From an uncultured bacterium (GTDB taxonomy: Bacteria; Planctomycetota; UBA8108; UBA1146), in contig CAJXMG010000009.1 of assembly GCA_913056395.1 (NCBI GenBank), positions 28,973-92,972 on the forward strand: 64,000 nucleotides of DNA, read 5' to 3'. A program made the translations under genes and the position numbers. Of the stretch, positions 46,553 through 56,278 are shown in pieces. Under the pieces are notes generated by a model. The model ran no database searches. It was not told the DNA's origin and saw only the letters and a list, made by a program, of their open reading frames with translations. Position 1 is the first letter of the stretch. Each line of letters opens with the position of its first letter.

Positions 46553-47305
46553 CTAACCGGAGAGCTTTTCGAGCATCTCCGGTGAGATGTCCAAATTGGT
46601 GTGTACATTTTGAACGTCATCGTTGTCCTCAACTTCCGCAATGAAGTTGAGGACTTTGGTGGCGGTTTTTTCATCCTCGATGGTGACCGTGCTGGTAGGG
46701 ATTCGGGTCACTTCTGCGTAACTCGGTTCCAGATTTGCACCGGCGATGGCCTGTCGTACCGCAGTGAACTGGGCAGGAGTGGTCAACACCTGAAGATGAC
46801 CCTCCTCGACTTTCACATCGTCTGCTCCCGCATCCAGAGCCAATTCCAGCAGATCATCCTCGGAGATGGAATCGGTGGGTAGTTCGATCACGCCCCGGGT
46901 TTCAAACATCCAGGAGACGGAGCCGGGGCTTCCCAGCTGCCCGCCTTTTTTATCAAAGATTTTACGAAGCTCACTTGCCGTACGGTTTTTGTTGTCGGTG
47001 AGAATGTCGATCATCAGTGCCACCTGGCCTGGTGAGTATCCTTCGTAGACCAATTCCGAGATGGCGTCCGATGCCAATTCGCCGGTTCCCTTTTTGATAG
47101 CACGGTCGATATTGTCATTGGGCATATTGGCGGCTTTGGCTTTGTCGACCACCAACTTCAGGTGAGGGTTCCCATTCACATCCCCGCCGCCGTCCCGGGC
47201 CGCAACCGTGATCAACTTGGCAAGTTTGCTGAAAATCTTGCCGCGCTTGGCGTCATTGGCGGCTTTCTTGTGCTTGATCCCAGCCCATTTGGAATGTCCT
47301 GCCAC
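46553..47305 (-). CDS. yebC: YebC/PmpR family transcription or translation factor
   Basis: YebC proteins bind DNA or the ribosome; recent work links some to relieving stalls at proline-rich sequences. At 250 residues it has the family start AGHSKWAGIKHKKAANDAKRGKIF, then GNPHLKLVVDKAKAANMPNDNIDRAIKK and YEGYSPGQVALMIDILTDNKNRT. All three domains are present. It converges on the DUF2203 gene, with a 2-bp gap, and is preceded by the H1-tail gene. Confidence 0.96.
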   Translation of the reverse strand: MAGHSKWAGIKHKKAANDAKRGKIFSKLAKLITVAARDGGGDVNGNPHLKLVVDKAKAANMPNDNIDRAIKKGTGELASDAISELVYEGYSPGQVALMIDILTDNKNRTASELRKIFDKKGGQLGSPGSVSWMFETRGVIELPTDSISEDDLLELALDAGADDVKVEEGHLQVLTTPAQFTAVRQAIAGANLEPSYAEVTRIPTSTVTIEDEKTATKVLNFIAEVEDNDDVQNVHTNLDISPEMLEKLSG

Positions 47306-47363: not shown

Positions 47364-48518
47364 CTAGCGAGTTTTCTTCTTGCTGGTCTTTTTCTTCGCT
47401 ACTTTTTTGGCGGCCTTCTTGGCTACTTTTTTCGTTGCCTTTTTCTTGGTGGTCTTTTTAACCGCTTTTTTAGCAACCTTTTTCTTGGTGGTCTTTTTGA
47501 CCGCTTTTTTAGCAACCTTTTTCTTGGTCACTTTCTTTTTGGCGGTTGTCTTTTTCTTTGCAGCAGCGGCCTTCTTCTTGGCGGCTGCCTTTTTCTTATC
47601 AGCAGCGGCTTTCTTCTTTGCGGCGGCGGCCTTCTTCTTGTCGTCTGCGGCCTTTTTCTTCGCTGCAGCAGCTTTCTTTTTGGCTACCTCAGCGGCTTTC
47701 TTTGCAGCAGCAGCCTTCTTTTCTGCAGCAGCTTTCTTCTTCGCTTCGGCAGCGGCTTTTTTCTCCGCAGCTGCGATCTTTGCTGCTTCCTTACGAGCTG
47801 CTTCAGCCGCCTTTTTAGCGGCCAGTTTTTCCGCTTCCAGTTTCTTCTTTTTTGCCAACTCGATGGCCGGGTCAGGATGGCGGAAAGCCTCGTCATGCAG
47901 TGCCATCACCGCGTGGACCAGAGGGACCTCTCCCAACTCTTCGTAAAGATCTTTCTGTCTTTGCGTCGAAGTTTTCGATTCAGAAAGCAATCCAGCCCGA
48001 ATCAATCCACCCTGAGCCCAGTTCTCCATGGGAATGACCGGTTGCTCCTTGATTGCTGCCAGAACAAGAAGTTTGCAAAGGTCTGGCAGTTCAGGTGAGC
48101 GTTTGAAAAACTCACGAGTTTCGGGAAGCGTGTTTTCGCGAATAAACTCGAGGCTGACCTGATGGCGACGTTCATAGAGGGTGGAAAGCATTTCCTTGAT
48201 CTGTACCGCAAGCTCCAGTGGGTCTTCCGCTTTGGGAAAGTTTTCAGCGACCTCTGAGGCGGAGGAGATCCGGATCTCGTTCCAGTCGACAAACTGGGTT
48301 CTGAGAAGGTCCCAGGATTTGAGGACTTCCTTGAGGGGCATTTTTGAGGTCAGGGCACCCAGCATCAGGGTGTCGAGGGCATCCAGATCCTGAATCTCCT
48401 TCAGAGTTGGATTCTTGGAATAGGCCTCTTTGACGATGGAGGCGAGGGAGATCTTCCCTTTACCGGAACCTTTGGAAGAGGCGTTCTTTTTGTTGGTGGC
48501 TGCGGTTTTGGCCGCCAT
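47364..48518 (-). CDS. HhH-GPD-like domain protein with a histone H1-like lysine/alanine tail
   Basis: A 384-residue protein in two parts. Residues about 25-215 look helical and resemble the endonuclease III (HhH-GPD) fold: FVDWNEIRISSASEVA, LYERRHQVSLEFIREN, then ELPDLCKLLVLAAIKEQPVIPM, where the catalytic Lys/Asp hairpin and the Fe-S Cys cluster are missing. Residues about 220-384 are almost all Lys and Ala, with KKKVAKKAVKKTT repeated, like eukaryotic linker histone or bacterial H1-like proteins, ending KKTR. It probably binds DNA non-specifically through the tail. The glycosylase-like fold is inference from pattern. Confidence 0.75.
   Translation of the reverse strand: MAAKTAATNKKNASSKGSGKGKISLASIVKEAYSKNPTLKEIQDLDALDTLMLGALTSKMPLKEVLKSWDLLRTQFVDWNEIRISSASEVAENFPKAEDPLELAVQIKEMLSTLYERRHQVSLEFIRENTLPETREFFKRSPELPDLCKLLVLAAIKEQPVIPMENWAQGGLIRAGLLSESKTSTQRQKDLYEELGEVPLVHAVMALHDEAFRHPDPAIELAKKKKLEAEKLAAKKAAEAARKEAAKIAAAEKKAAAEAKKKAAAEKKAAAAKKAAEVAKKKAAAAKKKAADDKKKAAAAKKKAAADKKKAAAKKKAAAAKKKTTAKKKVTKKKVAKKAVKKTTKKKVAKKAVKKTTKKKATKKVAKKAAKKVAKKKTSKKKTR
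47441..47528 (-). repeat. 39-bp tandem repeat inside the H1-like tail gene
   Basis: Two nearly identical direct copies of a 39-bp unit encode KKKVAKKAVKKTT twice. Only one or two bases differ. The whole tail-coding region (about 47365-47860) is low complexity, so its length may vary between strains. The reading frame on the other strand here is an artefact of AAA/AAG codons. Confidence 0.8.
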
Positions 48519-48664: not shown

Positions 48665-49495
48665 TCATTCGACCTGCTGGGAGTCCAAGTTTTTTTGCTT
48701 TTCGGCCCTCTTGGCAGACTCTCCCAGGAAACCCCTGTGATGGGCGATCAACTCTGCAGAGATGGATATGGCGATCTCTTCAGGAGATCTCGATCCGATG
48801 GGGAGCCCCACAGGAGAGCGTACTCTGGAGAGATCTTCTTCGGGGATGCCCTGCTCTCTCAGGTGCTTGAGGATCGCTCCCGCCTTGCCACGACTACCGA
48901 TGAGGCCGACGTAACCGGCGGGGGTGGCGAGTGCACGGGAGAGCGCAAGTTCGTCGTGCTGGTGACCCCGTGTGACGACGACAACCGCACAATTGGCACT
49001 GATCTCGAAATCATCGAGACATTTCTCGAAGGGGGAGCAGTGTACTTCGGTCGTGGGTGCGAAGTATTGGGGAGCCGCAAAGTCTTCACGGTCGTCGATG
49101 ACAGTGATGCGCCACTGAAGAGTCTGAAGCACGTTTTCAAGTGCTCTGGAAACGTGTCCTGCTCCGAGAATGAGGACCCAGGGAGTCCCGACAGGTTCGA
49201 TGTACACTTCGAATTCTCCTCCACAAAGCAGACCGGTTTCAGCGACGGTCGCTGCGGTCAGGCGATGTTTTTCACGGCGGGGTGTCCCGGTAGCCATCAC
49301 TTCCATGGCACTTCGCCAAACATCGGACTCGCTACAGCCTCCACCGACGGTACCCACGGTGCTGCCATCGTCACGAATCAGCATTCTTGCCCCATCTTTG
49401 CCAGGGGTTGAGCCCACGGTCGAAATAATGGTGGCCAACGCTCCACGGCGCCCCGTCTCCAGCAGTCTGATCGTCTCCTGAAATACGTCCAGCAC
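48665..49495 (-). CDS. XdhC/CoxI family protein
   Basis: A maturation or cofactor-delivery factor for molybdenum hydroxylases: XdhC-type proteins hold sulfurated molybdenum cofactor. The N-terminal domain has ATIISTVGSTPGKDGARMLI and TVGGGCSESDVW; the C-terminal Rossmann domain has VLILGAGHVSRAL, VVVTRGHQHDELAL and GLIGSRGKAG with SPVGLPIGSRSPEEIAISI. I chose GTG 49495, with AAAGGTGA seven bases upstream, giving the usual length of 276; the frame extends to 49801 but the extra part is unlike the family. No hydroxylase subunit gene is in the window. It is divergent from the diguanylate cyclase. Confidence 0.9.
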   Translation of the reverse strand: MLDVFQETIRLLETGRRGALATIISTVGSTPGKDGARMLIRDDGSTVGTVGGGCSESDVWRSAMEVMATGTPRREKHRLTAATVAETGLLCGGEFEVYIEPVGTPWVLILGAGHVSRALENVLQTLQWRITVIDDREDFAAPQYFAPTTEVHCSPFEKCLDDFEISANCAVVVVTRGHQHDELALSRALATPAGYVGLIGSRGKAGAILKHLREQGIPEEDLSRVRSPVGLPIGSRSPEEIAISISAELIAHHRGFLGESAKRAEKQKNLDSQQVE

Positions 49496-49649
49496 CGTTA
49501 AATCACCTTTCTCGACCTTTAGATCACCCTCCGAAAATAGCAGTGGAGTGGCCGCAGTGCCACCTGAGCGGCCCAAATTGGGATTCCGTGATATCTTTAT
49601 CTGCGGGTGATGTGGCCCGTTGGACCTGTATTTGGAAAGACGGAGGCCG

Positions 49650-51056
49650 ATGTCCCGTTCAGCGACTCCCAGTCGATTCAGCGAGTGGCCATTACCACCT
49701 GATCCTGGCGAATCACGATTGTTGCTGGATCTTTTTCCTGATCCTCTGATTGTTGCGAGAGGCCCTGCACGAAAACTGTTGTCCGTCAATCGAGCCTTCA
49801 TGGAATTGGTCGGTGTCGATGATCACGGCGATTTGCGGGACGTTCCGCTGACTCACTGGATTCACGAAGACGATCGCCATCGACTGTTGTCGTTGGGCGG
49901 GGATGGAGAATCAGATCCGGTCCCCATCATGGTTCAATTGCGTGACGGCGATTCATGGCAGTCGGTGGCACTGATGGGCGGTAGAAGGCTGAGCCCCCGT
50001 GGTGAAGAGCGGTGGGTGTACCGTCTCAAGATTCTTGAGGAGAGTGGAATAGGCCTTGAGAAGCAAATGCGAGAACAACGCAAAAGGGCTTCAGAGGCTG
50101 TGCGAACTTCTTTGCGCATCTTTCATCTGACAGAAAAAATTCGAATGGCTCCACGTCTCTCGGCGATGCTAATCGGCGTCAAGGACGAAGCCGAGTTCTA
50201 TGAAAGAGCGGGGCGATTGCTCAGCTCTGAAGGGCTCGGTTATCGGGGGGTCAGCTTTTGGCAAATGGCTGGTGATCAGAAGGAACTGATCTGGTCTGAA
50301 AATGATTCGTGTGAGATCGACTTGGAAGCGGGTGAATCGACGAGATCCCTTCCCCTGGTTACGGGGAGCGGTCGTGTGGATCGTGTTTTGGAGCTGCAAA
50401 TTGATAATCGGGAGCTCCAATTGTTGCGCGAGGCTCCGCTATTGATGGAGTGGCATGAGGAAGTTCTTGGCACGATTGCTGAGGTGCTTGCCCTGACACT
50501 TGAAAACCTCAAGTTGCATGCTCAACTGGAAGCCCAGGCTCTGCTGGATCCCCTGACTGGGGTTTCCAACCGACTTTATCTGACAGGACAATTGGAAAAG
50601 GAAGTGGTGCGCTCGCGCCGTGATCAACAGCCTTTGGGTCTGCTCTTTACCGATCTGGATGGCTTCAAGCAGGTCAATGATGTCCTCGGTCACATGAAAG
50701 GGGACGAGTTGCTGATTGAGGTCAGCCAGTTCCTCCAGAACCATTTCCGCGAAAGTGATCATTTGTGTCGCTACGGTGGTGACGAGTTCGTCGTGATCAT
50801 GCCAGGTTCCGCCCTCGAAGACATCCGGGCAAAGGCAGAAGACCTGTTGTCAGCATTTCGAGATCACTCATTCTTGAATGGAGAGACGAGTCAGGCGGGG
50901 AAAGTGTCCCTCTCCCTGGGTATCACCCAACTGCGAGATGGAATGAATGGAGCAGAGCTGTTGGATGAAGCAGACAAGGCTCTCTACGAGGCGAAACGCA
51001 AGGGCAAGGACCAGCTGGTGGTCGTCAAACCTCAAGGGTCAAACTCAGAGGATTAG
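49650..51056 (+). CDS. PAS-GAF-GGDEF diguanylate cyclase
   Basis: It makes c-di-GMP from two GTP. Residues about 25-130 look like a PAS sensor (FPDPLIVARGPARKLLSVNRAF), about 150-285 like a GAF domain, then a coiled linker and a GGDEF domain starting DPLTGVSNRLYLTGQLEKEV. The catalytic motif YGGDEFVV is intact (Gly376-Phe380), and RESD (367-370) five residues ahead gives an inhibitory I-site. No membrane helix is seen, so it is a soluble sensor. I chose ATG 49650 with GGAGG upstream; an in-frame ATG at 49620 is possible. The ligand of PAS or GAF is unknown. Confidence 0.9.
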   Translation: MSRSATPSRFSEWPLPPDPGESRLLLDLFPDPLIVARGPARKLLSVNRAFMELVGVDDHGDLRDVPLTHWIHEDDRHRLLSLGGDGESDPVPIMVQLRDGDSWQSVALMGGRRLSPRGEERWVYRLKILEESGIGLEKQMREQRKRASEAVRTSLRIFHLTEKIRMAPRLSAMLIGVKDEAEFYERAGRLLSSEGLGYRGVSFWQMAGDQKELIWSENDSCEIDLEAGESTRSLPLVTGSGRVDRVLELQIDNRELQLLREAPLLMEWHEEVLGTIAEVLALTLENLKLHAQLEAQALLDPLTGVSNRLYLTGQLEKEVVRSRRDQQPLGLLFTDLDGFKQVNDVLGHMKGDELLIEVSQFLQNHFRESDHLCRYGGDEFVVIMPGSALEDIRAKAEDLLSAFRDHSFLNGETSQAGKVSLSLGITQLRDGMNGAELLDEADKALYEAKRKGKDQLVVVKPQGSNSED

Positions 51057-51074: not shown

Positions 51075-51488
51075 TCAGGCCTGATCTTCCGAATCTGCAG
51101 ATTCTGCCTGGTCCCGTGATTCCCTTTCACGGGCCGCCTCTTCGTCCGCTTCACGGGCGAGGCGAATCTTTTCTTCGATATCCTGGGTTTTCTGAAAACT
51201 GTCATCGAGGATGAATCTCAGAATGGGAGTTTCACGCAGGCGTACCCTGTTGCGCAGGAGAGATTGAATCTTCCCGCGTGCGGCTTCCAGACCTCTCAGG
51301 GAAGTGCGCTGTTCACCTTCGCTTCCAAGGATGGAAACAAAGACTTTGCACTCCTTCAGATCCTCCGTCGGTTCCGCGCCCAGGACAGAAACGAAACCGA
51401 TCCGGGGGTCCTTGAGCTCTCCCTGAAGAATCAGGGAGATCTCTTCCTTGATGAGGCTGGCCAGTCTTGCCTTGCGGATCGGTCTCAT
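51075..51488 (-). CDS. rbfA: Ribosome-binding factor A
   Basis: RbfA is a KH-fold factor for late 30S maturation. Its 137 residues include SLIKEEISLILQGELKDPRIGFVSV and the segment TEDLKECKVFVSILGSEGE, then RLRETPILRFILDDSFQ near the C-terminus, followed by a Glu/Arg-rich tail. It lies 3 bp after infB, the standard nusA-infB-rbfA order. It converges on the diguanylate cyclase. Confidence 0.94.
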   Translation of the reverse strand: MRPIRKARLASLIKEEISLILQGELKDPRIGFVSVLGAEPTEDLKECKVFVSILGSEGEQRTSLRGLEAARGKIQSLLRNRVRLRETPILRFILDDSFQKTQDIEEKIRLAREADEEAARERESRDQAESADSEDQA

Positions 51489-51491
51489 CGC

Positions 51492-54356
51492 TTATCCTGA
51501 ACTCTTATTGGTCTCTCCCAGTTTTCGTGAAGTCTCGATGACCTTGTAACTCTCGATGAAGTCACCGACTTTGATGTCGTTGTAGCCTTTGACAACCAGA
51601 CCACACTCGAAACCTTCACGCACTTCTTTGGCATCGTCCTTGACCCTCTTCAGGGAGGCCAACTTGCCTTCGTGAACCATGACCCCATCTCGAATCAGGC
51701 GGATTTTGTCATCCCGTGTGATGATTCCATTGCGAACCATACAACCTGCGATGTTTCCAAGTTTGGAAGACTTGAACAGATGAAGAATCTCTGCGGATCC
51801 TTGCAGCTCTTCAGAAATATCGGGGCTGAGCATGCCTTCGAGGGCCTGCTTCATATCCTCGAGGATTTCGTAGATTACCGTGTAGGTGCGGATTTCAACG
51901 CCGTGACTATCGGCTTCCGATCGCGCCTTGTCCGAGGCTGAAACATGGAAACCGATGACGATGGCATTGGAAGCGTCTGCGAGAAGGATATCGGATTCGG
52001 AGATCTCACCGACTCCGCCCCGCAACACGCGGACGGCAACCTCATCCGTTTGCATTCCCGACAGTTCGCTTTTGAGAACGTCGAGGGTTCCTTTGACATC
52101 GGTTTTGACGATGACGTTGATTTCCTTTGTTTTGGCCTTGTCGATGGTGTCGAAGAGGCCTTCGAGTGTCACCTTTTGACGCTCGGCACGATCCGCCTTC
52201 GCTTTTGCTTCTTGACGCTCTTCCGCAATCTGTCTTGCCTTGGAAGCTGAATCGAGTGCGTAGAGTTTGTCGCCAGCCTCCGGCAAATCGTTGAGACCCG
52301 TGATCTCTACAGGAGTTGCCGGCGGAGCAGTTTCAAGAAGATGTCCGCTGGTAGACTTGAGGGTTCGGATCTTGCCGTGAGCAGGTCCACAGACAACGTT
52401 GTCACCCTGGTGAAGAGTGCCGTCCTGAACGAGGACAGTGATGACATTTCCTTCACCAGTGGAGGCTCTTGAATCGAGAACGGTGCCGATGGCTTTCTTT
52501 TCAGGGTTGGCTTTCAACTCGAGGATTTCCGACTCGAGGGAAAGGTGCTCGAGCAAGCCATCGACCCCTTCGCCAGTCATGGCGGAGACGGGAATCATCT
52601 CGGTTTCGCCACCCCAGTCACTGGGGGTCAGTCCCAGCTCAGCCAACTTGGCCTTGACCATGTCAATGTTGGCTCCCGGGCGATCCATCTTGTTGATGGC
52701 GACCACGATGGGAACCTCGGCGGCCTTGGCATGTTCGATGGCCTCTTCTGTCTGCGGCATGGGGCCGTCGTCGGCAGCCACGACCAGAACCACGACGTCG
52801 GTGACATTGGCACCGCGGGCACGCATGCTGGTGAAGGCTCGGTGACCGGGAGTATCGACAAAGACGACGTGGGCGTTGCCCTTGTCGACACGGTAAGCAC
52901 TCAAGTGCTGAGTGATTCCGCCCGATTCGGACTTGGTGATGGAACTCTCCCTAATCTTGTCGAGGAGAGTGGTCTTACCATGGTCGACGTGGCCCATCAT
53001 GGTGACCACGGGGGCACGCAAGATCAGATCGGATTCGGCGTCTTCGAAGCTCTCGATCTCATCGAGAGTCGTTTCGAAGGCCTTCGGCTCTTCGAGAATG
53101 ATCTCGCAATTGATCTCAACGGAAAGCGTGTCGACGATCTCCTGAGAAAGGGGAGAGTTGACGTTCGCAAGCATTCCGTGATTCATCAACTTTTTCAACA
53201 GTGCCGTCTGTTTGACTCCGAGGGCCAGGCTCAGATCCTTGATGCTGGCCGGTTCCTCGAGGGTGATCTGATCTGGAAGGTCTTCCGGAATCAGGTCCTG
53301 CTGAAGTCTGCGACGGGTGAAGTCTGATTCCTGATTGCGTGTGCGACCCTGCTGGCGTCCGCGACCTTTGCCTCCAGGTCCGCCACGACCCGGTCCGCCT
53401 CCACGCTTGGCTCCCGGTGGGCCTGCTGGATCGGCACCCGGGAACACCATGACTTTCTTTGCACCATGTGCCGAAGAAGGAGCGGCTGGACGGCTGGTAC
53501 CACCGGTGCGCGGGCCTCCTCGTCCCGGTCCGCCACCGGGTCGGTCTCTTCTCGGACCAGAGTCGGTTCTGCCCGCGGGGCGGGCAGGGGCCTTTGAACG
53601 AATGATCAGCGGCCGCCCCTTGCTCTTGCGGGGAGTGGGGGCCTTCGGATCAAGCGGTCTGGCAACGGGCATGACCGGAGTTTTTTGATCTCCGCTATTA
53701 CCACCGAAGCCAGGAGCCATGACGATTTTTCGTGGTTTCTTTTTGGGAGGCTCTGGCGCAACTTCAACTGCCGGTTCGATCGGAGATTCGGCGACAGTCT
53801 CTGCCTGAGATTCCGGTGTTTCGACCGACTCAGCTTCATCAGGAGTAGCAGGGTCTGAAACGGACTCTGCGACAGCCTCTGGCGCGGGTTCATCCGCAAC
53901 AGCAGGTTCTTCCCCAGGAGCGGATTCGACAGCAGGTTCCTCGACGGGTTCCTCTTCTGCCACCGGAGGCTCTTCGGCGATTCCGGCAACTTCTTCGACC
54001 GGTGCCTCTTCCTCCTGAGTTGCTTCGACGACGGGTTCAGCTTCGACAACTTCAGCCTGGGGCTCAAGAGTCTCTTCCGACTTCTCAATTGCTGGAGCTT
54101 CTTCCGGAGCTGCGACCGTCTCTTCTTCAACGGCAGTGGATTCCTCCACCGTCTCTTCCTGCGGTTCTGGTTCCGGTTCGGGTTCCGGTTCTGGCTCAGG
54201 TTCTGGAGCGAGGAAGATTCTGACGAGTTCGGCTTCGTCCTCCTTGATGGAAGACATGTGGCCTTTGACACGAACTCCCCGTCCTTCGAGGAATTCCATC
54301 ACCATCTTGCTCTCAAGACCAAGTTCCTTGGCCAGTGCGTGGATTCTCACGCCCAA
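51492..54356 (-). CDS. infB: Translation initiation factor IF-2
   Basis: IF-2 brings initiator tRNA to the 30S subunit. The N-terminal IF2-N domain (about 1-50) is followed by a very long variable region (about 50-370): first Glu/Pro/Ala-rich with runs of EP, then Gly/Arg/Pro-rich basic (about 240-370). A second IF2-N copy ([20 protein letters not shown]) precedes the GTPase with [25 protein letters not shown] and NKMDRPGAN; domains II-IV follow. At 954 residues it is long. It stands between nusA and rbfA; no ylxR gene separates it from nusA. Confidence 0.96.
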
Positions 54357-54414: not shown

Positions 54415-55740
54415 CTACTCCTCCTCGGAGTCGACACTTTCCATGATTTCCTGGATCTTTTCGATGATCAAACGTGCTGACAGTTCATCGAGTCCCTCGA
54501 TGGCTGACAAACCTTCCACCCCTGCCTCCAAGAGTGCTTCGGTGGAATCAATCTCTGCTTCAATCAATCGATCTGCGATCTCCTCGGTCACACCGGGAAG
54601 ATCCTCAAGACCCATCACCACCGTGCCCTCTTCGTATTCTTCAACCTCGGCGACTTCTGCCACAGGTTGTTCGAAGAGTTGGTCGAGGGGATTCTCAGAA
54701 GCCGCGCTTCCGGACTCTCCTTCAGACACTTTGGCAAGGCGGTCACCAAACATTTCGTCTGCGCGCTGATCGGCACCCTGTTCACGAAGAGTCTGCAGTT
54801 CCTCGTTGGTGATCGGGCATATGTTGAGCTCCCAGCCGGTCAACTTCGAGGCCAGGCGAACATTTTGTCCCCGTCGGCCAATGGCCAAGGATTGCTGGTC
54901 TTCTGTGACGTAGACATTGGCGGTCATCTCATCGTAGTCGAGTTCGAGTGAGGCGATCTCTGCAGGTTTCAACGCCTCCTGTATCAGCACGTCGATGGAT
55001 TCGTTCCAACGAACCACGTCGATTTTTTCGCCATTGAGTTCGTCGGTCACGTTTCGGATCCGCGAACCTTTGATGCCGATGCAGGCACCGACACAATCGA
55101 CATTGGCATCTAGTGTTGCCACCGCGATTTTGGTGCGGTTTCCGGCCTCTCTGGCCACCGCCTTGATTTCGACCACGAAATCGGAGACTTCCGGGATTTC
55201 CTGTTCGAAGAGGCGTCGGACGAGTGCTTCGTCCCCACGGCTCACAAGGAGCTGTACGCGAGTGGCCTGAAGATTGACCTCTTTGAGGACAACTTTGATG
55301 CGATCACCTTCATTCCAGTTTTCGAGGCTGGATTGCTCACTGCGGGGCATGAACCCTTCTGCACGGGTTCCGAGGGTGATGATCATTCCGCCGCCTTTGC
55401 GACTGGCGACGGTTCCATTGAAGATTTCTCCAACACGGTCGATGTACTCGCGGTAGATCACTTCGCGTTCCGCTTCGCGGATTTTCTGGAACAGGACCTG
55501 CTTTCCGGTACCCGCTGCAATACGGCCCAGAGCTTCGCGGGGATCGAAATCGACACCATCCTTGTGAGCCCGGATTCCACCGGACTCGCGGTCGATGATG
55601 ACCTCGATGCCCTCTTCCTGATCGAATCTTTTCTGGGCAGCCGAGACGAGTGCCATCTCGATTCCCGTGAAGATCACTTCCTTGTCGACTTGTCGATCAC
55701 GATGAATCGTGTCAACAAAGCGCAGGATCTCTTCGCTCAC
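54415..55740 (-). CDS. nusA: Transcription termination/antitermination factor NusA
   Basis: NusA binds RNA polymerase and nascent RNA. From the chosen GTG (441 residues) it has the N-terminal polymerase-binding domain, an S1 domain with FNGTVASRKGGGMIITLG, and two KH domains including CIGIKGSRIRNVTDELNGEKIDVVRW and LAIGRRGQNVRLASKLTGW. The end is an acidic linker and a helix-hairpin-helix LEDLPGVTEEIADRLIEAEI. The GTG at 55740 has GGGAG six bases upstream, better than the open frame to 55809. rimP, its common upstream partner, is absent here. Confidence 0.95.
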   Translation of the reverse strand: MSEEILRFVDTIHRDRQVDKEVIFTGIEMALVSAAQKRFDQEEGIEVIIDRESGGIRAHKDGVDFDPREALGRIAAGTGKQVLFQKIREAEREVIYREYIDRVGEIFNGTVASRKGGGMIITLGTRAEGFMPRSEQSSLENWNEGDRIKVVLKEVNLQATRVQLLVSRGDEALVRRLFEQEIPEVSDFVVEIKAVAREAGNRTKIAVATLDANVDCVGACIGIKGSRIRNVTDELNGEKIDVVRWNESIDVLIQEALKPAEIASLELDYDEMTANVYVTEDQQSLAIGRRGQNVRLASKLTGWELNICPITNEELQTLREQGADQRADEMFGDRLAKVSEGESGSAASENPLDQLFEQPVAEVAEVEEYEEGTVVMGLEDLPGVTEEIADRLIEAEIDSTEALLEAGVEGLSAIEGLDELSARLIIEKIQEIMESVDSEEE

Positions 55741-56278
55741 GTTCGTCTCCCATTCTTGCGGGGTGACTGTGTCAAACCCGCATTGCCGGATTGACCGGCT
55801 TGCGTTCAAACAAACTTGCGTTCAAACAAAAGTGAGCGGTGAAGCCAGTCCAGACCCTTTCTCACCGCTGTAACACAGCTCCGAAGCACCAACCTGTCGG
55901 GGAGGGGGATCGGTGGGCAGATCATCAGGTCTGGAACCTGATTTCCTGCAGGGGGGCCAGAAGCCCTCCGCGATCCCCGTCCGGCCAGGATAGGCCGTAT
56001 GAACCGGAATCAATTCCGATCCTGAACCGTTGGACCCACGGTTCCGGAGACGTCATCCTTGCCCTGGTCTCCGTATCCAGATGACGGCGATGGCCCAAGG
56101 ACATCCAGCCAGTGGCATCCAGCCAGGGCCTCCCGTCAAAGAAAACGGTGTGCGATCAGGAAAGCACGACTCCCTGCCCCGTTTCCGGAGCAGAAGTCTG
56201 AATCGTAGGACAGTCGATGGGTGCTGTCAATGAAACCGGACCCCGCTAAAAGCACAGAAACGAGGCCATAAGTTCAAT
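55741..56278. other. Structured intergenic region upstream of nusA
   Basis: No convincing gene lies in these 538 bp. A 15-16 bp tandem duplication (two copies of TTGCGTTCAAACAAA) runs from about 55801 to 55830. Hairpins are visible at 55836-55868 (GCGGTGA with TCACCGC), 56005-56018 (CGGAAT/ATTCCG, a near palindrome) and 56024-56044 (GAACCGT with ACGGTTC, seven-base loop). A second duplication, CATCCAGCCAG twice, is at about 56098-56125. The region must hold the divergent promoters of nusA and the TIGR04282 gene; it could also encode a small RNA. Confidence 0.6.

Follow-up and report, generated by a model that had tools for sequence, protein, structure and literature searches.

Sequence and structure comparisons support the view that one gene in the window, as we call the whole 64,000-nucleotide stretch of DNA analysed here, encodes an inactive repair fold joined to a histone-H1-like tail. 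Its product probably binds nucleic acids in a new role and no longer acts in repair. The open reading frame (positions 47364–48518, minus strand) starts with ATG, has orthologues, and specifies 384 amino acids, which make up a putative endonuclease III-like pseudo-glycosylase core and a Lys/Ala tail. Position, strand, length and start codon are exactly those given in an earlier note on this DNA. That note, however, treated the protein as a single oddity, whereas it belongs to a family distributed across the phylum Planctomycetota. The kinds of component involved, namely an HhH-GPD fold, an H1-like tail and a translation operon, are already known; new are their combination, the phylum-wide conservation and the loss of catalysis, which do not amount to a categorically new system. 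Comparison of the core with three close relatives yielded dN/dS values of 0.02–0.03, indicative of strong purifying selection and therefore of a maintained, not a decaying, gene. Because these values go together with orthologues across the phylum, the features of the reading frame are not a product of chance.

Fold, ancestry and active-site residues of the core

AlphaFold2, supplied with a 56-row alignment of the family, predicted an all-alpha structure for residues 17–222 with a mean pLDDT of 95.6. The top Foldseek matches were all HhH-GPD glycosylases (Deinococcus radiodurans EndoIII-1 and EndoIII-3, plant ROS1, MagIII and Nth), with E-values from 1.7e-5, a probability of 1.00 and TM scores of 0.5–0.6. 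The rmsd values were high, suggesting that the two domains of the modelled core may be positioned differently relative to each other. The model of a distant family member (L151) also had a pLDDT of 95.6; it matched EndoIII-1 at 1.6e-7 in Foldseek and gave TM scores of 0.66/0.71 against the Nth-DNA complex 1orn.

At the sequence level, a Pfam search with the target protein alone came back empty even with the threshold relaxed to E ≤ 10, so a single-sequence search was insufficient and NCBIfam and profile searches were needed. Against NCBIfam, the same single sequence gave a weak match to the DR2438 family NF053634 (E = 3.5e-4; 20 of 400 bits, far under the cut-off). The 56-row family profile, searched against PDB chains, found D. 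radiodurans EndoIII-1 at E = 5.6e-30. NF053634, the DR2438 glycosylase model, matched 49 of the 56 family members and TIGR01083 (nth) matched 22 of them, the distant members matching the DR2438, Nth and MutY models. The earlier note had proposed, from sequence patterns, that the N-terminal part has the HhH-GPD fold and derives from a repair enzyme; it had called for structure prediction and fold comparison, with an unrelated fold as the outcome that would speak against it. No unrelated fold was seen. The confident model, the glycosylase matches and the profile hit bear out the fold, and sequence homology together with the predicted fold bears out the derivation of the core from an endonuclease III-type repair glycosylase. 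Thus, the membership of the core (residues ~21–216; 47871–48458, minus strand), whose assignment rests on AlphaFold2, Foldseek, the profile search against PDB and a check of individual residues, in the HhH-GPD/endonuclease III superfamily is well supported by fold and ancestry.

For the residue check, we used the Nth protein of the same genome as the reference and inspected 84 family members. The catalytic Lys was missing in all 84, and the LPGVGxKTA hairpin sequence was lost; in the target, SPELPDLCKLL takes the place of the LPGVGHKTA hairpin of Nth, and the Asp of VDTH corresponds to the Glu of PMENW. The residue at this Asp position was Asp in just 16 of the 84 members, scattered over the family, and Glu throughout the close clade of the target. 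The wedge Gln was retained in a single member. The C-x6-C-x2-C-x5-C loop of the [4Fe-4S] cluster was not found in the target protein or its close clade; it was present in 41 of the 84 members, and the tree implies at least 8 changes. In the family profile, conservation peaked at FVDWNExR, and the equivalents of the HhH hairpin and of the two intercalating loops were no better conserved than average. The statements of the earlier note that the Lys/Asp hairpin and the Fe-S cysteines are absent from this protein therefore stand. Taken together, these comparisons support a core without a recognisable active site, that is, a predicted pseudo-enzyme.

The genome also encodes a canonical nth gene (above the cut-off), a MutY-type gene and two canonical HU proteins. 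Its canonical Nth (L141) keeps LPGVGHKTA and VDTH, and the last Fe-S cysteine is apparently missing from it (C-x8-C-x2-C followed by SWAATA). Fe-S loss is thus not unique to the target.

The basic tail

Residues 217–384 and the stop codon (47364–47870, minus strand) form the basic tail, which measured 168 residues, close to the 165 of the earlier note. The segment contains 71 Lys, 58 Ala, 10 Thr and 8 Val, with a pI of 10.7 and a net charge of about +61, and by composition it is a Lys/Ala-rich, low-complexity, polycationic domain of the H1-like type. Such a composition is clearly not due to chance. The internal tandem repeat mentioned in that note was also detected: Tandem Repeats Finder reported 2.3 copies of a 39-nt unit, VAKKAVKKTTKKK, at 47438–47528 (minus strand) with a 98% match, adjoined by weaker repeats. 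The core has an acidic composition, with a net charge of -8 to -9 (about -8 for residues 21–216). A search of the genome detected no second Lys/Ala tail of this kind. An antisense reading frame overlapping the tail (47380–47946, plus strand) was discarded as an artefact of composition. A scan for promoters and terminators was uninformative, returning 1 and 5, respectively, against 0.8 and 5.2 expected.

A family in the translation operons of Planctomycetota

Homologues were found in 44 of the 59 relatives searched, and scanning 84,980 species genomes with a sequence pattern yielded 123 confirmed loci, of which 80 were kept. The genomes carrying the kept loci have planctomycete titles with few exceptions, among them two MAGs titled Bacillota and Proteobacteria, which fall inside the family tree. 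A profile search matched 284 of 294 genomes of the phylum; since true Nth/DR2438-like paralogues are matched too, this sets an upper limit. The presence among its matches of intact glycosylases (L139 and L150) and of fusion proteins (L162 and L163) led us to rely on motif and synteny instead. On the tree, the family occupies one side of a branch that separates it from five glycosylases (SH-aLRT 98). Its signature, FVDWNEIR in the target (residues 76–83; 48270–48293, minus strand), is the most conserved segment of the core. Members picked by HMM have F/Y-x-D-[W/L/Y]-N-[E/D]-x-R, with one D-to-N exception; the apparent absolute invariance of FVDWNE in loci L031–L110 is partly by construction, as the scan used this pattern. 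We found no published description of the family in the literature searched, which included few subscription papers.

The paralogues are of two sorts. L150 (G237) and L139 (G302) are true DR2438-like glycosylases with Lys, Asp and Fe-S loop intact, occurring in planctomycetes beside the inactive family; by synteny, L150 lies outside the translation operon. L162 (G131:C5, near 320 kb) and L163 (G311:C72, near 30 kb), from other planctomycetes, are fusions in which a ROS1/DR2438-like HhH-GPD glycosylase is followed, in one frame, by a DNA C5-cytosine methyltransferase; their glycosylase part carries the VDFH/VDTH Asp and the Fe-S loop.

Basic extensions of variable length were present in 37 of the 59 members on the tree and absent or short in 22, with at least 11 changes. 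They are mostly C-terminal and in some members N-terminal (L041, L069, L088 and L095). The net charge of the core is not conserved, ranging from -12 to +16 across the family, so no shared nucleic-acid surface can be demonstrated. A possible offsetting of acidic cores by basic tails was set aside as weak (Spearman -0.25, p = 0.03, uncorrected for relatedness), and independent pairs on the tree gave no support for an association of Fe-S loss with tail gain.

In the window, yebC, a conserved neighbour encoding a translation factor of the TACO1/YebC family, lies 58 bp downstream of the target (46553–47305). The conserved upstream neighbours are rbfA (51075–51488), infB, encoding IF-2 (51492–54356), and nusA (54415–55809), and all four genes are on the minus strand. 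Between the target and rbfA stand xdhC, on the same strand, and an opposing GGDEF gene, the latter between xdhC and rbfA. About 18 loci of the class to which the window belongs (L031–L049) show this insertion (48665–51056). The arrangement typical of the family is nusA-infB-rbfA-X-(hisG)-yebC, where X is the target gene, and another lineage has ffh/rpsP. Both infB and rbfA are upstream of the target in 41 of 81 loci, and in each of these 41 no other conserved gene stands between rbfA and the target, once the xdhC/GGDEF insertion of the window's class is disregarded. A separate 21 loci have ffh/rpsP neighbours, and yebC or hisG is present in 44. Altogether, 77 of the 81 loci have some conserved neighbour and 4 have none of these. 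The nusA-infB-rbfA-X arrangement was found for 17 of 17 HMM-picked members, as against none of the three glycosylase paralogues sampled; synteny and signature jointly separate the family from repair glycosylases.

In several lineages the target is followed immediately by hisG, an unexpected gene in a translation operon, which encodes ATP phosphoribosyltransferase (L053, L055, L057, L058, L061, L063–L067, L074, L082, L087, L099, L108, L110, L160 and L164). YebC is reported to bind RNA and to assist ribosomes in translating proline-rich stretches (PMC12234827).

Relation to known proteins and possible roles

The closest sequence family is that of D. radiodurans endonuclease III-1 (DR2438; NF053634, monofunctional DNA glycosylase), which shares with the target the fold and a DW motif at the signature position. 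Unlike DR2438, the target has no catalytic Lys, conserved Asp or HhH GxG hairpin, its clade has lost the Fe-S loop, and it has acquired a Lys/Ala tail and a translation-operon context. Schizosaccharomyces pombe Mag2 is reportedly an HhH-GPD protein in which glycosylase activity of the expected type is not detectable. To our knowledge, neither Mag2 nor D. radiodurans endonuclease III-3 (DR0928) has a Lys/Ala tail. The latter is, like the target, of HhH-GPD type, and the expected glycosylase activity is not detectable in it, but both the Fe-S cluster and the catalytic cleft are preserved in it (PMC10523315).

As for the tail, chlamydial HctB/Hc2 and Pseudomonas AlgP similarly have low-complexity Lys/Ala tails of short repeats. 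Neither, as far as we know, has a folded core derived from a glycosylase, as the target does. The length of the Hc2 repeat tail varies between strains (PMC2848022). The target family differs from HctB and AlgP in that its basic tail is a late addition, gained or lost repeatedly. The HU proteins with lysine-rich tails of mycobacteria and deinococci resemble the target in combining a folded nucleic-acid-binding core with a basic tail. Their core fold is unrelated, and the target's genome has its two ordinary HU proteins as well.

We regard the target as a non-catalytic, exapted HhH-GPD protein that most likely works on RNA, on the ribosome or at the interface of transcription and translation, a reading whose probability we place slightly below even. 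This site comes out as the likeliest because the gene is found in two independent kinds of translation operon, a context that modestly favours such an association. The core would no longer flip and excise bases and would instead offer its nearly invariant DxNExR surface to a partner, either a protein or a structured nucleic acid, while the flexible Lys/Ala tail would provide sequence-independent electrostatic binding to nucleic acid. The protein might then serve ribosome maturation or support translation, as do its neighbours RbfA, IF-2 and YebC, with DNA packaging as the runner-up. Several considerations count against this reading. Operon membership is not function, and genes for repair and nucleoid proteins also occur in housekeeping operons. 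All characterised HhH-GPD relatives that we know of act on DNA, and Lys/Ala tails are best known from the DNA-binding proteins H1, HctB and AlgP. The unconserved charge of the core speaks against it as well.

The alternative that comes nearest, possible but distinctly less probable, is a nucleoid-associated architectural protein, in which an H1/HctB-like tail would neutralise and compact DNA and the glycosylase-derived core would bend or clamp it; the target could possibly be one factor behind the condensed nucleoid of planctomycetes. HhH-GPD is a DNA-binding fold, most members carry polycationic Lys/Ala tails of variable length at one terminus or the other, and the tail of the target is the sole one of its kind found in its genome. 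Planctomycete nucleoids are condensed, and no histones were found in G. obscuriglobus beyond two divergent HU proteins (PMC3440768). Against this, 22 of 59 members show no clear basic extension, the core encoded in the window is acidic (net -9), the DNA-contact positions of glycosylases are not conserved in the family, and the genome already has two canonical HU proteins. The conserved placement in translation operons also weighs against it, pointing to a link with RNA or the ribosome no less strongly than to the nucleoid.

It is unlikely that the protein is a non-catalytic sensor of lesions or AP sites, which, by analogy with Mag2 or DrEndoIII3, would bind damaged DNA without excision and recruit repair factors. 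Fold and ancestry are compatible with such a sensor, as are the appearance of Mag2 on damaged DNA (4hsb) among the fold matches, the retention of the Fe-S loop in about half of the members and the DNA binding of DrEndoIII3 despite its undetectable EndoIII activity (PMC10523315). However, conservation is lacking at the hairpin, wedge and intercalation positions, the Fe-S loop has been lost repeatedly, and the main operon arrangement shows no linkage to repair genes. Less likely still is an active glycosylase with a re-invented active site, using for example the D/E of DWNE or the Glu at the Asp position: D78, N80, E81 and R83 are nearly invariant and polar, as expected of catalytic residues, and that Glu is constant in the close clade of the target, but in the alignment the signature falls in the stretch flanked by the two intercalating loops, off the active-site positions, and the Asp position is free to vary in the family as a whole.

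Returning to the exapted protein of translation operons, we consider it plausible, if rather short of even, that the family is phylum-defining: a glycosylase fold that would have shed its catalytic function, entered the core translation operons and acquired histone-like tails, to act as a factor dedicated to binding RNA/ribosomes or the chromosome. If true, this would be a clear functional repurposing of a base-excision-repair fold, retained by most of a phylum whose cell biology is unusual. The proteins that make planctomycete nucleoids so unusually compact have yet to be named (PMC3440768), and 108 essential proteins of unknown function in P. limnophila are phylum-specific (PMC10632474). The gene directly 3′ of rbfA is a specific candidate for both questions, and signature and synteny make it easy to locate in any planctomycete genome. 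Such a factor might possibly couple the condensed nucleoid of planctomycetes to transcription and translation.
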